A stretch of DNA of 64,000 nt from Muriicola sp. Z0-33 (GTDB lineage Bacteria; Bacteroidota; Bacteroidia; Flavobacteriales; Flavobacteriaceae), in NCBI RefSeq assembly GCF_026126425.1, contig NZ_JAFMPW010000003.1, positions 186,001 through 250,000 on the forward strand, written 5' to 3'. The stretch's first letter is position 1. Every line of letters starts with the position of its first letter. Shown piece by piece: positions 23,156 to 30,631 of this stretch. The position numbers were made by a program, and so were the translations under genes. The notes under the pieces were generated by a model. That model made no database searches, had not been told where the DNA came from, and was given only the letters and a program-made list of their open reading frames with translations.

Positions 23156-24274
23156 CTACTGTATTAATTTATAAAAGTCTTCTTCAAATTTTTTATAGGT
23201 CGCTTCAAATCTATTGTTACTAAGTATTACCAAAAATTCATTGCTGTCAGGTAAATATAGCATCATGGTCTTATAACCAGACCAGCTACCATTATGATAA
23301 ACCCATCTGCCCTTTCCTGAACTGTTGTATATGGCCCAACCATAACCATACTTCGTGGAGATCTCATCGACAGACATCATAATTTCTTTACTTCCATCTT
23401 TAATAAGCAAATTATACTTTATAGCTTTTTTCCATTTTTCGAGATCGAGAATAGAGGAGTATATTCCTCTATCACCTACTACTCCATTCATCCAATGAAT
23501 ATGCTTATGATTCTTGTCATTTTCTATCTCTTGATATTTTCCAGTTTGCTGATTATATGTGTAACCCCGGGCAACATTCTGAAATAACTCCGTTTGGTCA
23601 AAATCATCAAAGACTCTTGAAGAACTCATTCCTGAGGGCTTAAATATGTTCTCCGTAATATAACTTTTATATGATTGTCCAGAGACATTCTCAATTATTG
23701 AAGCCAGAACTGCATAGCCCGTATTATTATATTCATATTTAGTACCTGGTTGAAACCTGAGATCTAATTTGAGTTTACCTAACAAGCTGATCACATCGCT
23801 ATTTGTCGCAACATTCTTTCTATTCCAGTGTTTCCTGTCATAGAGTATTTTCTGGTAATCAGGAAGCCCGGATTGGTGCCTAAGTAAATTTGCTATGGTG
23901 ATATTATAGTACGGGAAATTGCTAAGGATCTTGTCAACATAGGTATCATATCCTATAAGGTTCTTTTCAACCAATTGCACTATACCCAAAGCAGTAAACT
24001 GTTTTGAACAGGAAGCCAACTCAAATACCGTGGAGTTATCGAGTGGTTTTTGTGATGAAAAATTGCTATACCCATAATTCCCAGTATAAATAATGCTGTC
24101 ATTTTTAGAGTAAAGTATGTTTCCATTAAACCCTCTGGAAGCGTACTCTCTTACCAAACTATCAATACTTTCAGAATTTTGTCCATGACTCTTTAGTATT
24201 ATTAAAATTGCCATCAAAAGTATTCCGAGAGTCCGGTATTCTAGAATAAAGTGGTGTTTCTTAGTGCTGATCAT
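23156..24274 (-). CDS. Serine hydrolase, beta-lactamase (class C/PBP4*) family
   Basis: A 372-residue exported protein with an N-terminal hydrophobic segment (about 13-32, possibly a signal anchor; start uncertain). The active-site set of class C-type hydrolases is present: SxxK as Ser88-Cys-Ser-Lys91, YxN as Tyr182-Asn-Asn184, and HNG in VYHNGSWSGYKT (near 328). Substrate could be a peptidoglycan peptide, a D-amino ester or another amide; sequence does not tell. Its start overlaps the stop of the upstream flavin-fold gene by one base, so the two are co-translated. Confidence 0.87.
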   Translation of the reverse strand: MISTKKHHFILEYRTLGILLMAILIILKSHGQNSESIDSLVREYASRGFNGNILYSKNDSIIYTGNYGYSNFSSQKPLDNSTVFELASCSKQFTALGIVQLVEKNLIGYDTYVDKILSNFPYYNITIANLLRHQSGLPDYQKILYDRKHWNRKNVATNSDVISLLGKLKLDLRFQPGTKYEYNNTGYAVLASIIENVSGQSYKSYITENIFKPSGMSSSRVFDDFDQTELFQNVARGYTYNQQTGKYQEIENDKNHKHIHWMNGVVGDRGIYSSILDLEKWKKAIKYNLLIKDGSKEIMMSVDEISTKYGYGWAIYNSSGKGRWVYHNGSWSGYKTMMLYLPDSNEFLVILSNNRFEATYKKFEEDFYKLIQ

Positions 24275-24894
24275 TAGAACTTGATATTATTTGACTTAAG
24301 GATGGTTTCTAATTGGATAATTCTCTCCTTAGAAGCGGCCAAAATTGGCTCTAGTTGCTCTTTGGTAAAACGAGGTGCTATATGCTGGGGACAATTTACA
24401 TCCCATGCAGTGACTGTAAATACAATTGCTCTCTCTACCTTTGCCCTATAACCGGGATCTGAAAGAGACTCCAGCAGCTCTTCATCATCATCAACTACAA
24501 CTGCTGTGCCCCATATTTTTATCCTTGTTCTGTTAGGATAATCCATTAGAAAAAGAGTCGCCTTATTATTTTCACTCAGGTTACCGACAGAGATATATTG
24601 GCGGTTACCCCTAAAGTCTGCAAACGCTAATCTTTTTTCATCCAGGACTTTTAAAAATCCTTTAGGGCCTCCCCGGTGTTGTATATAAGGTTGGCCCTCA
24701 TTATTTGCCGTGCCCATATAAAAAGAATCTATTTTGGCAAGGAATTGCTGGAGGCCAGTATCTATTTGAGTTTGCCATCCCCCTCGTTCTTCCATGCTTG
24801 CATAGCTTTTCCGAGATCCTTGTTGCTGCTGAATTTTCTTTACCGCAGGGGTAAAAACCACATCACTGGGATAAAGAGATTGATTGTTTTCCAT
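24274..24894 (-). CDS. Pyridoxamine 5'-phosphate oxidase-family protein
   Basis: A 206-residue cytosolic protein with the FMN-binding split-barrel fold. Diagnostic stretches are FYMGTANNEGQPYIQHRGG, RLAFADFRGNRQYISVGNL and the following strands ATLFLMDYPNRTRIKIWGTA. It is a general flavin reductase or PNPOx-like protein, not the true PdxH, which has different substrate-binding residues. It is first in a two-gene unit with the serine hydrolase. Substrate unknown. Confidence 0.83.
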   Translation of the reverse strand: MENNQSLYPSDVVFTPAVKKIQQQQGSRKSYASMEERGGWQTQIDTGLQQFLAKIDSFYMGTANNEGQPYIQHRGGPKGFLKVLDEKRLAFADFRGNRQYISVGNLSENNKATLFLMDYPNRTRIKIWGTAVVVDDDEELLESLSDPGYRAKVERAIVFTVTAWDVNCPQHIAPRFTKEQLEPILAASKERIIQLETILKSNNIKF

Positions 24895-25114: not shown

Positions 25115-25537
25115 CTATTTCAATGCAAATTTTAAATCGTACTGCACCAGAACAATCAGGGGCAGTGCATAGACCAGATGCCTTACCAATGTAATGAGCG
25201 GCATAACCGGGGAAGCATCAATACCGGCTACTCCAGCTCCCAACAGGGGTAACATAAAGAGCCAGACCAGGGCTATAGTTTCGGCTACTACAAAGAGTAA
25301 GGGCCTGAACCATTTTGGTCCCCATAAAGAAGGTGCGATACCGGCAAAAAGAACGGCCAGTAATACGCCATTTGTGTAGTGTCCGGCTACGCCGTAAGCC
25401 AATCCAAGCCCGGTTTTAGCTCCCAGGACTGTTGGAATATCCCACCAGGTTCCTAAAATAAGCAGGCCAGTGAGGTCAAATAAGACGGTTCCAATAAGTC
25501 CTGCCAAAATTGCATTTTTCCAGTTAATTGTTTCCAT
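25115..25537 (-). CDS. Small integral membrane protein, four helices
   Basis: A 140-residue protein with four hydrophobic helices (about 9-28, 52-72, 78-100, 110-132) and few charged residues. The N-terminus METINWKNAILAGLIGTVLFDLTG is typical of several small Bacteroidota membrane families that I cannot separate by eye. It belongs to the minus-strand TetR cluster, downstream of the alpha/beta hydrolase, and ends just before a perfect 18-bp hairpin. Function unknown. Confidence 0.7.
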   Translation of the reverse strand: METINWKNAILAGLIGTVLFDLTGLLILGTWWDIPTVLGAKTGLGLAYGVAGHYTNGVLLAVLFAGIAPSLWGPKWFRPLLFVVAETIALVWLFMLPLLGAGVAGIDASPVMPLITLVRHLVYALPLIVLVQYDLKFALK

Positions 25538-25548
25538 AATTCTCAGGT

Positions 25549-25668
25549 CTATGCAAATCTAATTTGCGTTAATACTGTATGTCTTCTGCTGCGTCTCCAA
25601 AAGCTGTGTCTGCTACCTCTGGTATCCCTCAGGTTTTCTTTACCGTTTTCAGTTACTTTTATTTTCAT
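25549..25668 (-). CDS. Possible very basic 39-aa peptide gene
   Basis: This ATG-to-TAG frame fills the 163-base gap between the alpha/beta hydrolase and the four-helix membrane protein on the same strand. The peptide is rich in Arg, His and Lys (RGSRHSFWRRSRRHTV) and has no helix or signal peptide. The ATG is 33 bases after the upstream stop. There is no independent support such as a promoter or a known family, so it may be chance. Confidence 0.25.
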   Translation of the reverse strand: MKIKVTENGKENLRDTRGSRHSFWRRSRRHTVLTQIRFA

Positions 25669-25700: not shown

Positions 25701-26690
25701 TTAATTGATATTATTCTTCTCTAAAAAGTTGAGGATGTAATCCGCTATTTCATCGCCTTTTTCCTCCAGGGCAAAATGTCCTGTATCCAGCATATGGAAT
25801 TCCAGATTCTTCAGATCTCTTTTGTAAGGATAAGCTCCATCCGCGGGGAAGATATAATCGTTCTTACCCCAGACGATCAATGCAGGTGGCTGATAGGTCC
25901 TGAAATAGTCTTGCCATTCCGGATACAAGGGCACATTGGTTCTGTAATCATAGAATAGTGCCAGTTGAATATCGTTGTTCTCTGTCCGGCTAAGGTGCAT
26001 GAGGTCTATATTCCAATTATCCGGGCTAATTCTTGTACTGTCTTTGGTGCCATGGGTATACTGCCATTTAAGACCAGCGGGGCTATGAAATCCTTCCAAT
26101 GCCTTGCCGTTTTCTACAGTATAGTCTCCCCAATATTTTTTGATAGGGATCCAAAAATCTTTTAGTCCTTCTGCATAGGCATTACCGTTCTGTATAATTA
26201 GTGCTTCTATGCTTTCCGGATTGGCCGCCGCAATCCTAAAGCCAACAGGTGCGCCGTAGTCCATTAAATAAATGCTGAACTTATCTACTTGCTTCACTTG
26301 CAGAAATCCTTCGATAATTTTGGCAAACTTTTCAAAACTGTACTCAAAGTCATTCATCGCCGGCTGATCACTACGTCCAAAACCGGGATAATCCGGAGCA
26401 AGCACATGGTAACGAACAGACAAGTCTGTTATTAAATTGCGAAACATATGGGAAGAAGTTGGGTAGCCGTGTAATAATAATATCGTCGGTCTGTTTACAT
26501 CTCCTGCTTCCCTGTAAAAAATGTTTATTCCGTCTACCTCAACTGTTTTGTGGAGGGTAGGTTGTGGTTTTTCTGTTTTTACTGAATCTTCCAAAATTAC
26601 TGTTGGTTCGGCAAAAGAAAAACTTCCAAAAATGATGACCGTTGCCAGGAAGGTCATACTTAATACTGATCTAATTGTTGTTGCTTTCAT
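25701..26690 (-). CDS. Exported alpha/beta hydrolase, haloalkane dehalogenase/epoxide hydrolase type
   Basis: A 329-residue protein with a signal peptide (about 1-27) and an alpha/beta-hydrolase fold. Motifs are HGYP (74-77; oxyanion-hole region), the nucleophile elbow LMDYGAPVG, where Asp144 replaces the usual Ser, and a catalytic His in DTGHFALEE. An Asp nucleophile with HGYP points to the haloalkane dehalogenase or epoxide hydrolase group rather than esterases. The coding sequence contains a full copy of the cluster's TetR operator at codons 88-92. It lies in the TetR cluster downstream of a DUF1348 gene. Confidence 0.87.
   Translation of the reverse strand: MKATTIRSVLSMTFLATVIIFGSFSFAEPTVILEDSVKTEKPQPTLHKTVEVDGINIFYREAGDVNRPTILLLHGYPTSSHMFRNLITDLSVRYHVLAPDYPGFGRSDQPAMNDFEYSFEKFAKIIEGFLQVKQVDKFSIYLMDYGAPVGFRIAAANPESIEALIIQNGNAYAEGLKDFWIPIKKYWGDYTVENGKALEGFHSPAGLKWQYTHGTKDSTRISPDNWNIDLMHLSRTENNDIQLALFYDYRTNVPLYPEWQDYFRTYQPPALIVWGKNDYIFPADGAYPYKRDLKNLEFHMLDTGHFALEEKGDEIADYILNFLEKNNIN
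26416..26429. promoter_or_regulatory. TetR-type operator inside the alpha/beta hydrolase coding region
   Basis: ACAGACAAGTCTGT, two perfect 6-base arms around AA, is identical to the operator at 27237 and one base different from the one before tetR at 27881. It lies inside the coding sequence, over Thr-Asp-Leu-Ser codons. A base A before and a base T after extend the arms to seven. Confidence 0.6.
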
Positions 26691-26796
26691 GATTTTAATT
26701 GTTTTAAAGGTTGTTAATTTTAAATGTGAAATGAAATGTGATTATTACTCTTTATTTTGTTCCCCGCTAGTGCTTCACCAAGGGTATTTTTAATTG

Positions 26797-27213
26797 TTAA
26801 AATTTTCTTTCCTCCGGACGTATCATTACATCATTGGCGCTCATATCTCTTACCCTCATTAGTCCATCGGCATCAAATTCCCAATGCTCATTGCCATGTG
26901 TGCGATACCACTTACCGCTCACTGCATGTTGCCATTCGTATTCGAAGCGGACAGAAATGCGGTTCTCAGTAAAGGCCCAGAGGTATTTCCTTAGTTTATA
27001 GTTTAGTTCTTTCTGCCATTTATCGGACAGAAATTCTACGATAGCCTCTCGACCACTAAAAAACAGTTCCCGGTTGCGCCATTGAGAGTCAACTGTATAT
27101 GCTTTCGACACTTGTTGAGGGTCTTTACTGTTCCAGGCATTTTCAGCCGCCTGCACCTTTGCGGCAGCTGTTTCGGCATTAAAAGGGGGTACTATGGTTT
27201 TTGAACTCTTCAT
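26797..27213 (-). CDS. DUF1348 (NTF2-like fold) protein
   Basis: A 138-residue soluble protein with the cone-like NTF2 pattern. The stretches [41 protein letters not shown] and [31 protein letters not shown] match DUF1348, a family of unknown activity. No signal peptide is present, so it is cytosolic. A TetR operator lies 24 bases before its ATG, so it is probably first in the regulated transcript, with the alpha/beta hydrolase next after a 106-base gap. Confidence 0.85.
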
Positions 27214-27236
27214 AATATAAATTATTTAATTAACAT

Positions 27237-27250
27237 ACAGACAAGTCTGT
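27237..27250. promoter_or_regulatory. TetR-type operator before the DUF1348 gene
   Basis: ACAGACAAGTCTGT, arms ACAGAC/GTCTGT around AA, is identical to the copy at 26416. It is 24 bases upstream of the DUF1348 start and between that gene and tetR, a normal repressor position. Confidence 0.8.
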
Positions 27251-27296
27251 TCATTTGTCGTAAATCTTTTCGTTTGCTTACTTTTCATGCTATCCC

Positions 27297-27851
27297 TTAA
27301 GCCAACAGTTTTTTACAGGCACTTTTAGCTTTTAGGATCGGCCAGCTCTCCTTGTTGATCTGGGAGAGGATAATAGCCCCTTCTAAAAGCACATGGATCT
27401 CATCTCCCAAATTGGCCGCCTCTTCGTCCGAATAGGCCTCAGAAAGTACTCCATGTATCCATTCTCTCACCAGGCTTTTATGCAAAATGGCCTGATCCTT
27501 AATTTTACTGTGGTCTTCTGGCAGATCAGTAACTATATTCTGCCATCCGCATCCACGAAAGTTAACTTCATTGAGCCAATGCTCAAGAAAATCAAAACTG
27601 CCAAGTATCTTGGATTTGGGATCGGTATGTTCGGCCACATAGGAAGCAAGATTCCCCATCCAAACTCCATGGCGTCTTTGCAGATAGGCTACTGCGATAT
27701 CCTCCTTAGACCTGAAATGTACATACATACTAGCCTTGGCAACATTGGCCTCCGCTATTATCTGGTTAATCCCTGTCTGGTTATAACCGTTATGATAGAA
27801 CAAGTCTGAAGCTGTTGCTATGATACGATCTTTAACTCCTGCTTTTTTCAT
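27297..27851 (-). CDS. TetR/AcrR-family transcriptional regulator
   Basis: A 184-residue repressor. The N-terminal helix-turn-helix (RIIATASDLFYHNGYNQTG, then INQIIAEANVAKASMYVHFR) is the TetR signature; the C-terminal half is a helical ligand-binding domain. The ATG at 27851 gives the usual short N-terminus; an upstream in-frame start at 27869 would add six residues. A palindromic operator (ACAGACAGGTCTGT) sits about 30 bases before it, and two nearly identical sites lie in the DUF1348-hydrolase region. It probably represses itself and the downstream genes until a small molecule binds. Ligand unknown. Confidence 0.9.
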   Translation of the reverse strand: MKKAGVKDRIIATASDLFYHNGYNQTGINQIIAEANVAKASMYVHFRSKEDIAVAYLQRRHGVWMGNLASYVAEHTDPKSKILGSFDFLEHWLNEVNFRGCGWQNIVTDLPEDHSKIKDQAILHKSLVREWIHGVLSEAYSDEEAANLGDEIHVLLEGAIILSQINKESWPILKAKSACKKLLA

Positions 27852-27880
27852 GATGCAAACATAAATCAAATTAATTATAA

Positions 27881-27894
27881 ACAGACAGGTCTGT
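27881..27894. promoter_or_regulatory. TetR operator upstream of the tetR gene
   Basis: ACAGACAGGTCTGT, arms ACAGAC/GTCTGT around AG, lies 30 bases upstream of the tetR start, consistent with autoregulation. Confidence 0.8.
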
Positions 27895-27934
27895 ATGTAT
27901 TTAACATAATTTTAACAATTTAGGCTCTTTTATC

Positions 27935-29260: not shown

Positions 29261-30631
29261 ATGGTTTTACAAACTCGTTTGTTCCTGGCTTTATTCTGGG
29301 CCACTGCAATACTATGCGCCCAGACCCCAAAGCAGTCTTACCTGGATTGGACATCCCTGCCATTTTCCATAGAAGAATTGTCGAAAAGACGCCTTGCCCT
29401 GGTTAAAAATTTACAGGACCGGGGAATAACCGGATCGGTCCTTATTCCTTCACGTGATGGATTCTCTACCAATGAAACCTTTAGGCAGCTCGACGATTTC
29501 TACTATTTCACTGGCCTGGAGCTCCCAAACAGCATTTTGGTGTTGGATATCACCTCTAACTGGTGGGCGGTTTATGGACCGGAGGAAGATTTTAGATTTG
29601 AAAATAAAGCAAGACCCAATGATTTCCCTGGAAGAGCTCTGATTAATGATCCAGGTATTGAAACGGTATCTGGTCTCTCGCTTCGTGCCATTGAAGAATT
29701 CTCAGTATTAATGGATCAATACGCCTCGAACGGGACAACAGTAATTGTCAATGGCGGCAATACTAAAGAACTGGCATCTTGGCCACAAGACTATTTTAGT
29801 ACTCCTACTCCGATACAAATATTGCTGCGGTCATTAGAGGAAAAACATCCCGGACTAAGCTATAGAAATTGCTTTAGCGAAGTTGCAAGCATCAGAATGA
29901 TAAAATCGGAGGCAGAGATTGCGTTAATGCGCAAAAGTACGGCCATTAATATAGCGGGAATAAAAAAAGCTGCAAATGCCGTTAGGGCAGGTATTGATGA
30001 ACGTTACCTGGAAGGAGTTCTGGAAGGAAGTTACAAGAAAAATGGTGCACAGCGCCTGGCATTCGGTTCTATTATTAAATCCGGACCCAACTCACTTTGG
30101 CCCTGGCGTATATTGGCTACCCACTATAATAGGCGAAACAGAAACCTGGAAAATGGGGATCTTGTGATAATGGATGTAGGGTGCGAGTATAATAATTATG
30201 TTAGTGATGTGGGCAGAACTTTCCCTGTTTCTGGTAAATTTACTGAGATGCAAAGCGAATTATTGAACATGCAGGTTGAAATATCCGACGCCATAATAGC
30301 CTACATTAAACCAGGTGTTACATTTTCTGATCTCCGCAAATTGACAGATGAAATCATCCCTGAAGAAGCAAAACCATATATGCAGGCAAATTTATTCTTT
30401 GGTCACCACCTGGGACTATCCGTTGGTGATCCCAGTCTGGACGAAGCCACTTTGGAGGCAGGAATGATCTTCACCGTGGAACCTTGGTATTACAATCATG
30501 AAGATGAGATAGCGGTATTTACGGAAGATGTTGTTTTAGTTACCGAAGACGGTTGTGAGGTTCTGAGTAAGGACCTTCCAAGAACACCTGAAGACCTGGA
30601 AAGGTTAATGCATACCAATAATGACTATTAA
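29261..30631 (+). CDS. Secreted aminopeptidase P-like M24 metallopeptidase
   Basis: Removes N-terminal residues before proline. The 456-residue protein has a signal peptide (cleavage near ILCAQ), an N-terminal creatinase-type domain (about 35-190) and a pita-bread catalytic domain. The five metal ligands are visible as MDVG and SDVGRT (Asp near 305 and 316), GHHLG (His near 382), TVEPW (Glu near 407) and FTEDVV (Glu near 424). I chose the ATG at 29261, which begins a good signal peptide. It is convergent with the ybbP gene, with 14 bases between the stops. Confidence 0.9.
   Translation: MVLQTRLFLALFWATAILCAQTPKQSYLDWTSLPFSIEELSKRRLALVKNLQDRGITGSVLIPSRDGFSTNETFRQLDDFYYFTGLELPNSILVLDITSNWWAVYGPEEDFRFENKARPNDFPGRALINDPGIETVSGLSLRAIEEFSVLMDQYASNGTTVIVNGGNTKELASWPQDYFSTPTPIQILLRSLEEKHPGLSYRNCFSEVASIRMIKSEAEIALMRKSTAINIAGIKKAANAVRAGIDERYLEGVLEGSYKKNGAQRLAFGSIIKSGPNSLWPWRILATHYNRRNRNLENGDLVIMDVGCEYNNYVSDVGRTFPVSGKFTEMQSELLNMQVEISDAIIAYIKPGVTFSDLRKLTDEIIPEEAKPYMQANLFFGHHLGLSVGDPSLDEATLEAGMIFTVEPWYYNHEDEIAVFTEDVVLVTEDGCEVLSKDLPRTPEDLERLMHTNNDY

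Follow-up and report, generated by a model that had tools for sequence, protein, structure and literature searches.

In the 64,000-nucleotide stretch of the Muriicola sp. Z0-33 genome analysed here (the window; contig NZ_JAFMPW010000003.1, positions 186,001 to 250,000), the 14-letter palindrome ACAGACNNGTCTGT occurs three times within a gene cluster that begins with a gene for a TetR-type repressor, tetR. One copy lies in the tetR promoter (O1), one between tetR and a DUF1348 gene (O2) and one within the codons of a gene for an alpha/beta-fold hydrolase, ABH (O3; Table 1). Comparison with related sequences indicates that the codon-embedded site is real, non-random, constrained as DNA and tied to the linked tetR. 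O3 very probably is a functional TetR operator, in whichever mode it acts, and a codon-embedded TetR operator is a strong prediction. That TetR is the ligand of O3 is suggested by the location of the site, its likeness to O1 and O2 and its co-occurrence with the regulator.

The window scan placed exact copies of the palindrome at the three positions listed in an initial annotation of this DNA, and the whole 4,148,573-base genome contains only these three. The reversed, non-complemented pattern, which served as a control, matched once in the same genome. Three sites in 1.5 kb are far beyond chance, as the initial annotation had judged. With up to three mismatches allowed, 24 matches were counted in the window against 14.1 expected, a slight excess over background; one palindrome with two mismatches (ACAAACTCGTTTGT, 29269-29282) lies just inside the start of an M24 peptidase gene and is probably due to chance. 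The copies near the DUF1348 gene and in ABH have the same sequence, from which the tetR copy differs, so that the initial annotation, which had taken the first and third sites of its list (tetR, DUF1348, hydrolase) to be identical, has to be corrected in this respect. Its assignment of the third copy to codons 88-92 holds: these codons read ACA GAC TTG TCT GTT and encode Thr-Asp-Leu-Ser-Val. The AT-rich stretch flanking O3 is identical in 14 of 19 genes, the window counted among them.

Conservation and codon-level constraint of O3

O3 is present in frame and at unchanged codon positions in 19 of 21 hydrolase genes with a linked tetR orthologue (16 exact copies, three with one mismatch), compared to one of seven orthologues without this tetR (L092, one mismatch; Fisher p 0.0005, with no tree correction). 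The loci with O3 cover 14 genus codes and two family codes. The initial annotation had proposed a three-operator circuit with one copy embedded in codons, to be refuted if orthologous loci had lost only that copy. The opposite was found, since O3 is kept in these 19 loci along with the outer sites, and this retention lends support to the circuit. O1 precedes tetR in all 19 linked loci scanned (in L054 with one mismatch). In 18 related genomes, one to three exact copies of the palindrome were found per genome and none of the reversed control; apart from two matches in unrelated open frames, all belong to tetR loci or fall within the hydrolase gene linked to tetR.

The relatives were collected by searches with both proteins. 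TetR relatives (E up to 0.001) were present in 203 of 299 family genomes, the nearest 18 outside the own genome being 55-68% identical. The hydrolase search revealed a relative at E up to 1e-60 in 46 of 397 family genomes, a stricter search of 395 genomes of the order (E up to 1e-115) yielded five, two of them new, and four small searches in other genera and families added two further loci (L145 and L147). Neighbourhoods were analysed for the hydrolase matches listed with at least 61% identity in the 397-genome search, for the new matches and for further named contigs. Duplicates were counted once (the hydrolase genes in L144 and L146 are those of L034 and L038, and L049 represents the same contig as L035), which left the 21 linked genes, window included, and the seven orthologues without this tetR in the fetched flanks. 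Loci with a linked tetR and no such hydrolase (L036, L040, L043, L048, L051, L053) fall outside the denominator for O3. The codon profile was built from 18 linked loci; the promoter, codon-alignment and box scans comprised 17-19.

The codons of O3 are kept to a degree that the protein sequence does not demand. In the site-bearing genes, Thr88 is encoded by ACA and Asp89 by GAC in 19 of 19 and Ser91 by TCT in 18 of 19, each being the best-kept codon of its amino acid within the gene. Outside codons 80-93, the third bases of fourfold codons at shared residues are the same in only 0.37 of the comparisons among the 19 genes, whose proteins share pairwise identities of 0.68-0.94 (median 0.76). Fixed codons amid free silent change elsewhere argue for a constraint that acts on the DNA. 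When 21 genes were shuffled synonymously 200 times, the mean number of exact sites was 0.09 (maximum 1) against 16 observed, and that of sites with up to one mismatch 1.29 (maximum 5) against 19 observed. These codon shuffles, like those made for promoter boxes, ignore relatedness; the ranking of codons within a gene guards better against kinship. In the codon profile, those windows that start at codons 85-88 were the top-ranked of 173. Codon conservation extends about 20 nucleotides upstream of O3 and ends soon downstream of it; His81 (CAT in 17/18), Phe83 (TTT in 19/19), Asn85 (AAT in 18/18) and Leu86 each head the within-gene ranking for their amino acid. As a site resembling those of the cluster's own repressor, lying in coding sequence and conserved as DNA, O3 can be classed as a putative intragenic operator.

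It might be argued that O3 has no function as DNA, either because the enzyme needs Thr-Asp-Leu-Ser-Val or because the genes share a recent common inheritance. The pentapeptide is indeed invariant in the 19 site-bearing proteins and the site label changes only twice or four times on the trees. But the codons are fixed as well, against the low third-base agreement elsewhere, and six of the seven orthologues without this tetR, which are 62-70% identical to the window protein, carry other residues at this position (e.g. Pro-Val-Leu-Ser-Gln in L094). We therefore regard this explanation as very improbable.

A natural exchange of the regulator provides a further comparison. Four of the seven orthologues without this tetR (L092, L094, L096, L097) have another TetR-type gene adjoining or near, with TetR_N above the Pfam cut-off. 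The regulators of L092, L096 and L097 share 43-49% mutual identity and reach no better than E 0.02 in blastp against the window TetR; the L094 regulator reaches E 1.4e-4. Genes of this second type are flanked by a different palindrome resembling TTACCRAACGTTYGGTAA, one copy before and one after the regulator gene, a two-site layout that mirrors the one around the tetR type of the window. A similar palindrome is located near the hydrolase start in L098 and L099, within 1 and 3-4 mismatches, respectively, of the 18-letter consensus; none resembling TTACCRAACGTTYGGTAA was found in L133. The hydrolase genes of the four loci contain neither an exact O3 nor the second palindrome (best 6-7 mismatches), which indicates that O3 goes with this TetR and not with TetR-controlled hydrolases in general. 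L092 combines the other TetR with a shortened DUF1348 frame and the O3 copy with one mismatch, which resembles a relic.

Possible modes of action

The distribution of promoter boxes bears on how the sites may work. An exact TAnnTTTG box lies downstream of O1 in all but one of 19 linked loci, and its offset is 16-18 nucleotides in 17 loci, whereas on the coding strand downstream of O2 and O3 such a box occurred in 0 of 19 and 0 of 17 linked loci. In a wider set of 29 TetR loci, it followed O1 in 23 of 26 and O2 in one of 24. According to the available passages of PMC9723704, the -7 box of Flavobacterium psychrophilum lies at -12 to -5. Placed accordingly, the box of the window sets the tetR start on the A of the ATG and O1 at about -43 to -30. 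The tetR mRNA (27849-27863 region) is thus predicted to be leaderless, a class that makes up 5.5% of the mRNAs examined in F. psychrophilum (same passages, PMC9723704). The gap before ABH contains an exact -7 box in none of 19 loci and the gap after it in two of 19, window included, so that ABH probably depends on read-through.

Two further elements were noticed at these sites. Directly upstream of O1 (27895-27920), the consensus of 24 aligned tetR promoters reveals two TGTTAAA-like repeats about 11 base pairs (bp) apart. In L025 and L028-L033, an AT-rich element like TAAAAAAATTTA lies about 13-25 nucleotides before O2; the gene following tetR in these loci encodes a protein of about 248 amino acids (a short-chain dehydrogenase in L139).

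An exact -7 box that follows O1 but neither O2 nor O3, and that is absent from the gap before the hydrolase gene, fits one main promoter and two operators in the transcribed stretch. We favour, with a probability of roughly 0.45, a roadblock in which TetR on O2 and O3 would stop RNA polymerase within the operon. A single TetR-type repressor would govern the co-directional genes tetR, DUF1348 and ABH, and possibly the membrane-protein and flavoprotein genes behind them, by means of three operators. Binding to O1, which covers the -33 region of the tetR promoter, would block initiation. TetR bound to O2 and O3 inside the transcribed stretch would halt polymerases that escaped O1 or came from upstream, and the enzyme genes would thereby be silenced more tightly than tetR itself. 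A ligand that removes TetR would lift the repression. TetR binding to all three sites, a single transcript and the roadblock action of O3 are inferred. The initial annotation had left the choice between roadblock, looping and an internal promoter open; the roadblock is now favoured, with the internal promoter as a serious rival and little support for looping.

The internal promoter would use the box TATGTTTC (26448-26441) to start transcription about seven nucleotides before O3, to be repressed by TetR on O3, and would drive the membrane-protein and flavoprotein genes that follow ABH. In the 17 site-bearing genes compared, this box is the sole coding-strand 8-mer (gap-free columns) that never departs from TAnnTTTG by more than one mismatch, and the top-ranked codons for His81, Phe83 and Asn85 also speak for this reading. 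QacR, another TetR-family repressor, binds -6 to +21 of its target promoter according to the accessible text of PMC9210681. The box is also retained in L037, which has no operator and a G+C content at third codon positions of 0.56, but this is compatible with shared ancestry too. On the other hand, the last base of the box is C rather than G in the aligned genes, no -33 element was seen, and none of the codons 63 to 78 exceeds z 3 for codon conservation. L147 possesses an exact O3 but reads CAC ATG at the box, which is thereby broken. Since O3 is intact where the box is broken, we rank the internal promoter second after the roadblock and consider it rather unlikely.

Several observations weigh against the roadblock or the three-site scheme as a whole. 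All but one of the 19 site-bearing genes have, 19 nucleotides ahead of O3, a -7-like box with at most one mismatch, and the roadblock leaves the codon constraint of about 20 nucleotides, upstream only, unexplained. O2 shows a partly similar geometry: in 12 of 23 loci, a box with up to one mismatch occupies positions -26 to -16, where shuffling, which preserved letters and not dinucleotides, would predict 2.1 such loci, and exact boxes occur in two against 0.1. O2 may thus be a promoter operator. Eight loci of other types gave no excess (one of eight). O3 is dispensable, as two linked genes, those of L037 (Sinomicrobium weinanense) and L052, do without it. The link between recognition helix and site is not strict either: the helix segment differs in L058, where the site is missing, and also in L050, which keeps exact copies of O1 and O2. 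Finally, a tree from all columns requires two changes of the site label, but one without the site columns requires four, with poor support and an unresolved crown, and an independent-pairs test found only one pair on supported branches. Given the four changes and this crown, a single gain of O3 is not claimed.

Looping, in which TetR molecules on O1, O2 and O3 would contact each other and bend the DNA into loops in the manner of LacI, could account for three near-equal sites 0.6-2.6 kb apart in one cluster. But in 17 loci, O2 and O3 lie anywhere between 711 and 1928 bp apart, and tests for a 10.5-bp helical phase were not significant for any of the three pairs of sites (Rayleigh p about 0.75, 0.09 and 0.93). 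Moreover, members of the TetR family mostly occupy a short operator as a single dimer, as stated in the accessible text of PMC9210681, so that bridging would need an extra interface. Looping is for these reasons quite improbable. Least probable of all is that the palindrome acts as an RNA element or marks an antisense promoter. It can fold as a hairpin, but a 71-nucleotide fold was no better than shuffles (z -0.99), and the almost identical sequence of O1 lies ahead of the predicted start. A -7 box with one mismatch follows O3 on the other strand in seven of 17 loci; an exact one does so in none of 17, and no one-mismatch box keeps its position in at least eight of the 17 genes; the background of one-mismatch boxes in these genes is 0.28 per stretch.

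Genes of the cluster

The genes are arranged on the minus strand in the order tetR, DUF1348, ABH, a DUF2938-like membrane-protein gene and a gene for a PNPOx-type flavoprotein (Table 1). In the 21 linked loci, tetR, the DUF1348 gene and the hydrolase gene have the same order and strand, with at most two genes inserted. TetR possesses the N-terminal helix-turn-helix domain of the TetR/AcrR family. Its C-terminal domain is LmrA/YxaF-like and the YxaF structure 1sgm is among its PDB matches, but TetR_C_13_2 reached 24.1 bits, under the Pfam cut-off of 27, so that TetR was not assigned to the LmrA/YxaF subfamily. The hydrolase sequence Met-Asp-Tyr-Gly at residues 143-146 would be compatible with an Asp nucleophile, and the cluster may have a detoxification role and respond to a small-molecule inducer. 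Genes inserted between DUF1348 and the hydrolase in two relatives (L045, 8428-8982; L039, 2408-3142) include those for carboxymuconolactone-decarboxylase-type and isochorismatase-type proteins, hinting at a catabolic or detoxifying cluster. Between the hydrolase and membrane-protein genes of the window, there is an open frame of 39 amino acids (25549-25668, minus strand), and an exact -7 box, TAGATTTG, is located 24 nucleotides ahead of the membrane-protein gene start.

Table 1. Putative operators, promoter elements and genes of the tetR cluster (window positions)
Feature	Position	Strand	Remarks
O1, putative TetR operator in the tetR promoter	27881..27894	.	ACAGACAGGTCTGT on the plus strand
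-7 box of the tetR promoter	27856..27863	-	TATGTTTG
tetR, TetR/AcrR-type repressor, 184 amino acids	27297..27851	-	Pfam TetR_N 51.7 bits (cut-off 24)
O2, putative operator between tetR and the DUF1348 gene	27237..27250	.	ACAGACAAGTCTGT on the plus strand
DUF1348 (SnoaL/NTF2-like) gene	26797..27213	-	Pfam DUF1348 199.3 bits; PDB 2imj
ABH, alpha/beta-fold hydrolase gene, 329 amino acids	25701..26690	-	Pfam Abhydrolase_1 105.8 bits
-7-like box in ABH	26441..26448	-	one mismatch to TAnnTTTG
AT-rich flank of O3	26430..26438	-	AATTTAATA on the coding strand; codon choice conserved here too
O3, putative codon-embedded operator	26416..26429	.	ACAGACAAGTCTGT on the plus strand
Membrane-protein gene, downstream in the presumed operon	25115..25537	-	weak DUF2938, 24.8 bits, below the cut-off of 31.4
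PNPOx/PPOX-type flavoprotein gene, downstream	24274..24894	-	often nearby in relatives

Significance and comparison with known systems

It is our impression that intragenic repressor sites have mostly been treated for single model genes. O3 can be traced at silent codons over 14 genus codes, together with the natural controls of linked, site-less linked and other-TetR orthologues, and offers a tractable example of the same bases serving as regulatory DNA and as protein code. Further sites of this kind could be revealed by the conservation of synonymous positions in operons linked to a repressor. One may speculate that the operator shaped the enzyme, the keeping of a TetR site having fixed Thr-Asp-Leu-Ser-Val in 19 of 19 site-bearing hydrolases; hydrolases beside the other TetR type have no O3 or only a mismatched copy. 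We consider this idea unlikely. If it were true and TetR also repressed an internal promoter, a promoter-operator module would be written in codons across 14 genus codes, as a bacterial dual-code element.

He and Zalkin reportedly described in 1992 a PurR operator within the codons of Escherichia coli purB that acts as a transcription roadblock. It resembles O3 in that the repressor site lies in the coding sequence of the regulated gene, away from the promoter. PurR, however, belongs to the LacI type and controls a biosynthesis gene, whereas the regulator studied here is of the TetR type, is encoded in the cluster itself and has two further sites there. In the lac system, the auxiliary operator O2 lies inside lacZ, the first structural gene, and is bound by the repressor that also acts at the promoter. 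LacI, however, forms tetramers and loops DNA, whereas no looping interface is known for this TetR and the spacing of the sites is loose in the present cluster. The LmrA/YxaF-type TetR proteins of Bacillus subtilis belong to the same broad TetR branch, as judged by the sub-cut-off match to the C-terminal domain TetR_C_13_2. The AGACNNGTCT-like core of the palindrome presumably resembles the operator of LmrA/YxaF, and we know of no codon-embedded operator of these regulators.

Roadblocks by PurR, GalR, ArsR, CcpA and CodY are listed in the accessible part of a review (PMC10310618). Within the TetR family, the passages available from PMC9210681 and PMC5787919 describe RolR and AtsR of Corynebacterium glutamicum and RifQ of Amycolatopsis as stopping RNA polymerase downstream of the start, the mode proposed here for O3. 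By these passages, the operators of RolR and AtsR lie at +40 to +105 and that of RifQ at -61 to -35 of the coding start, i.e. before or between coding sequences. O3 differs from them in being situated about 260 nucleotides inside a coding sequence and in the conservation of silent positions. A similar case is FadRSa of Sulfolobus acidocaldarius, for which the available passages of PMC6449355 report four genomic binding regions by chromatin immunoprecipitation, one of them within the Saci_1115 coding sequence. FadRSa, a TetR-family repressor of a catabolic cluster, thus has few sites, one in coding sequence, as is predicted for the TetR studied here. However, FadRSa is archaeal, the Saci_1115 region is among two of low enrichment and those passages contain nothing on codon-level conservation. 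Our literature search, which gives weak evidence since it covered subscription papers only in part, found no TetR-family intragenic operator conserved at silent codons, nor anything that pairs DUF1348 with TetR or deals with TetR operators in Flavobacteria. TetR-family roadblocks downstream of the start and a weak TetR-family site in coding sequence are thus already in print; what the tetR cluster would add, as far as sequence comparison can tell, is a site that is embedded in codons and conserved at their silent positions.

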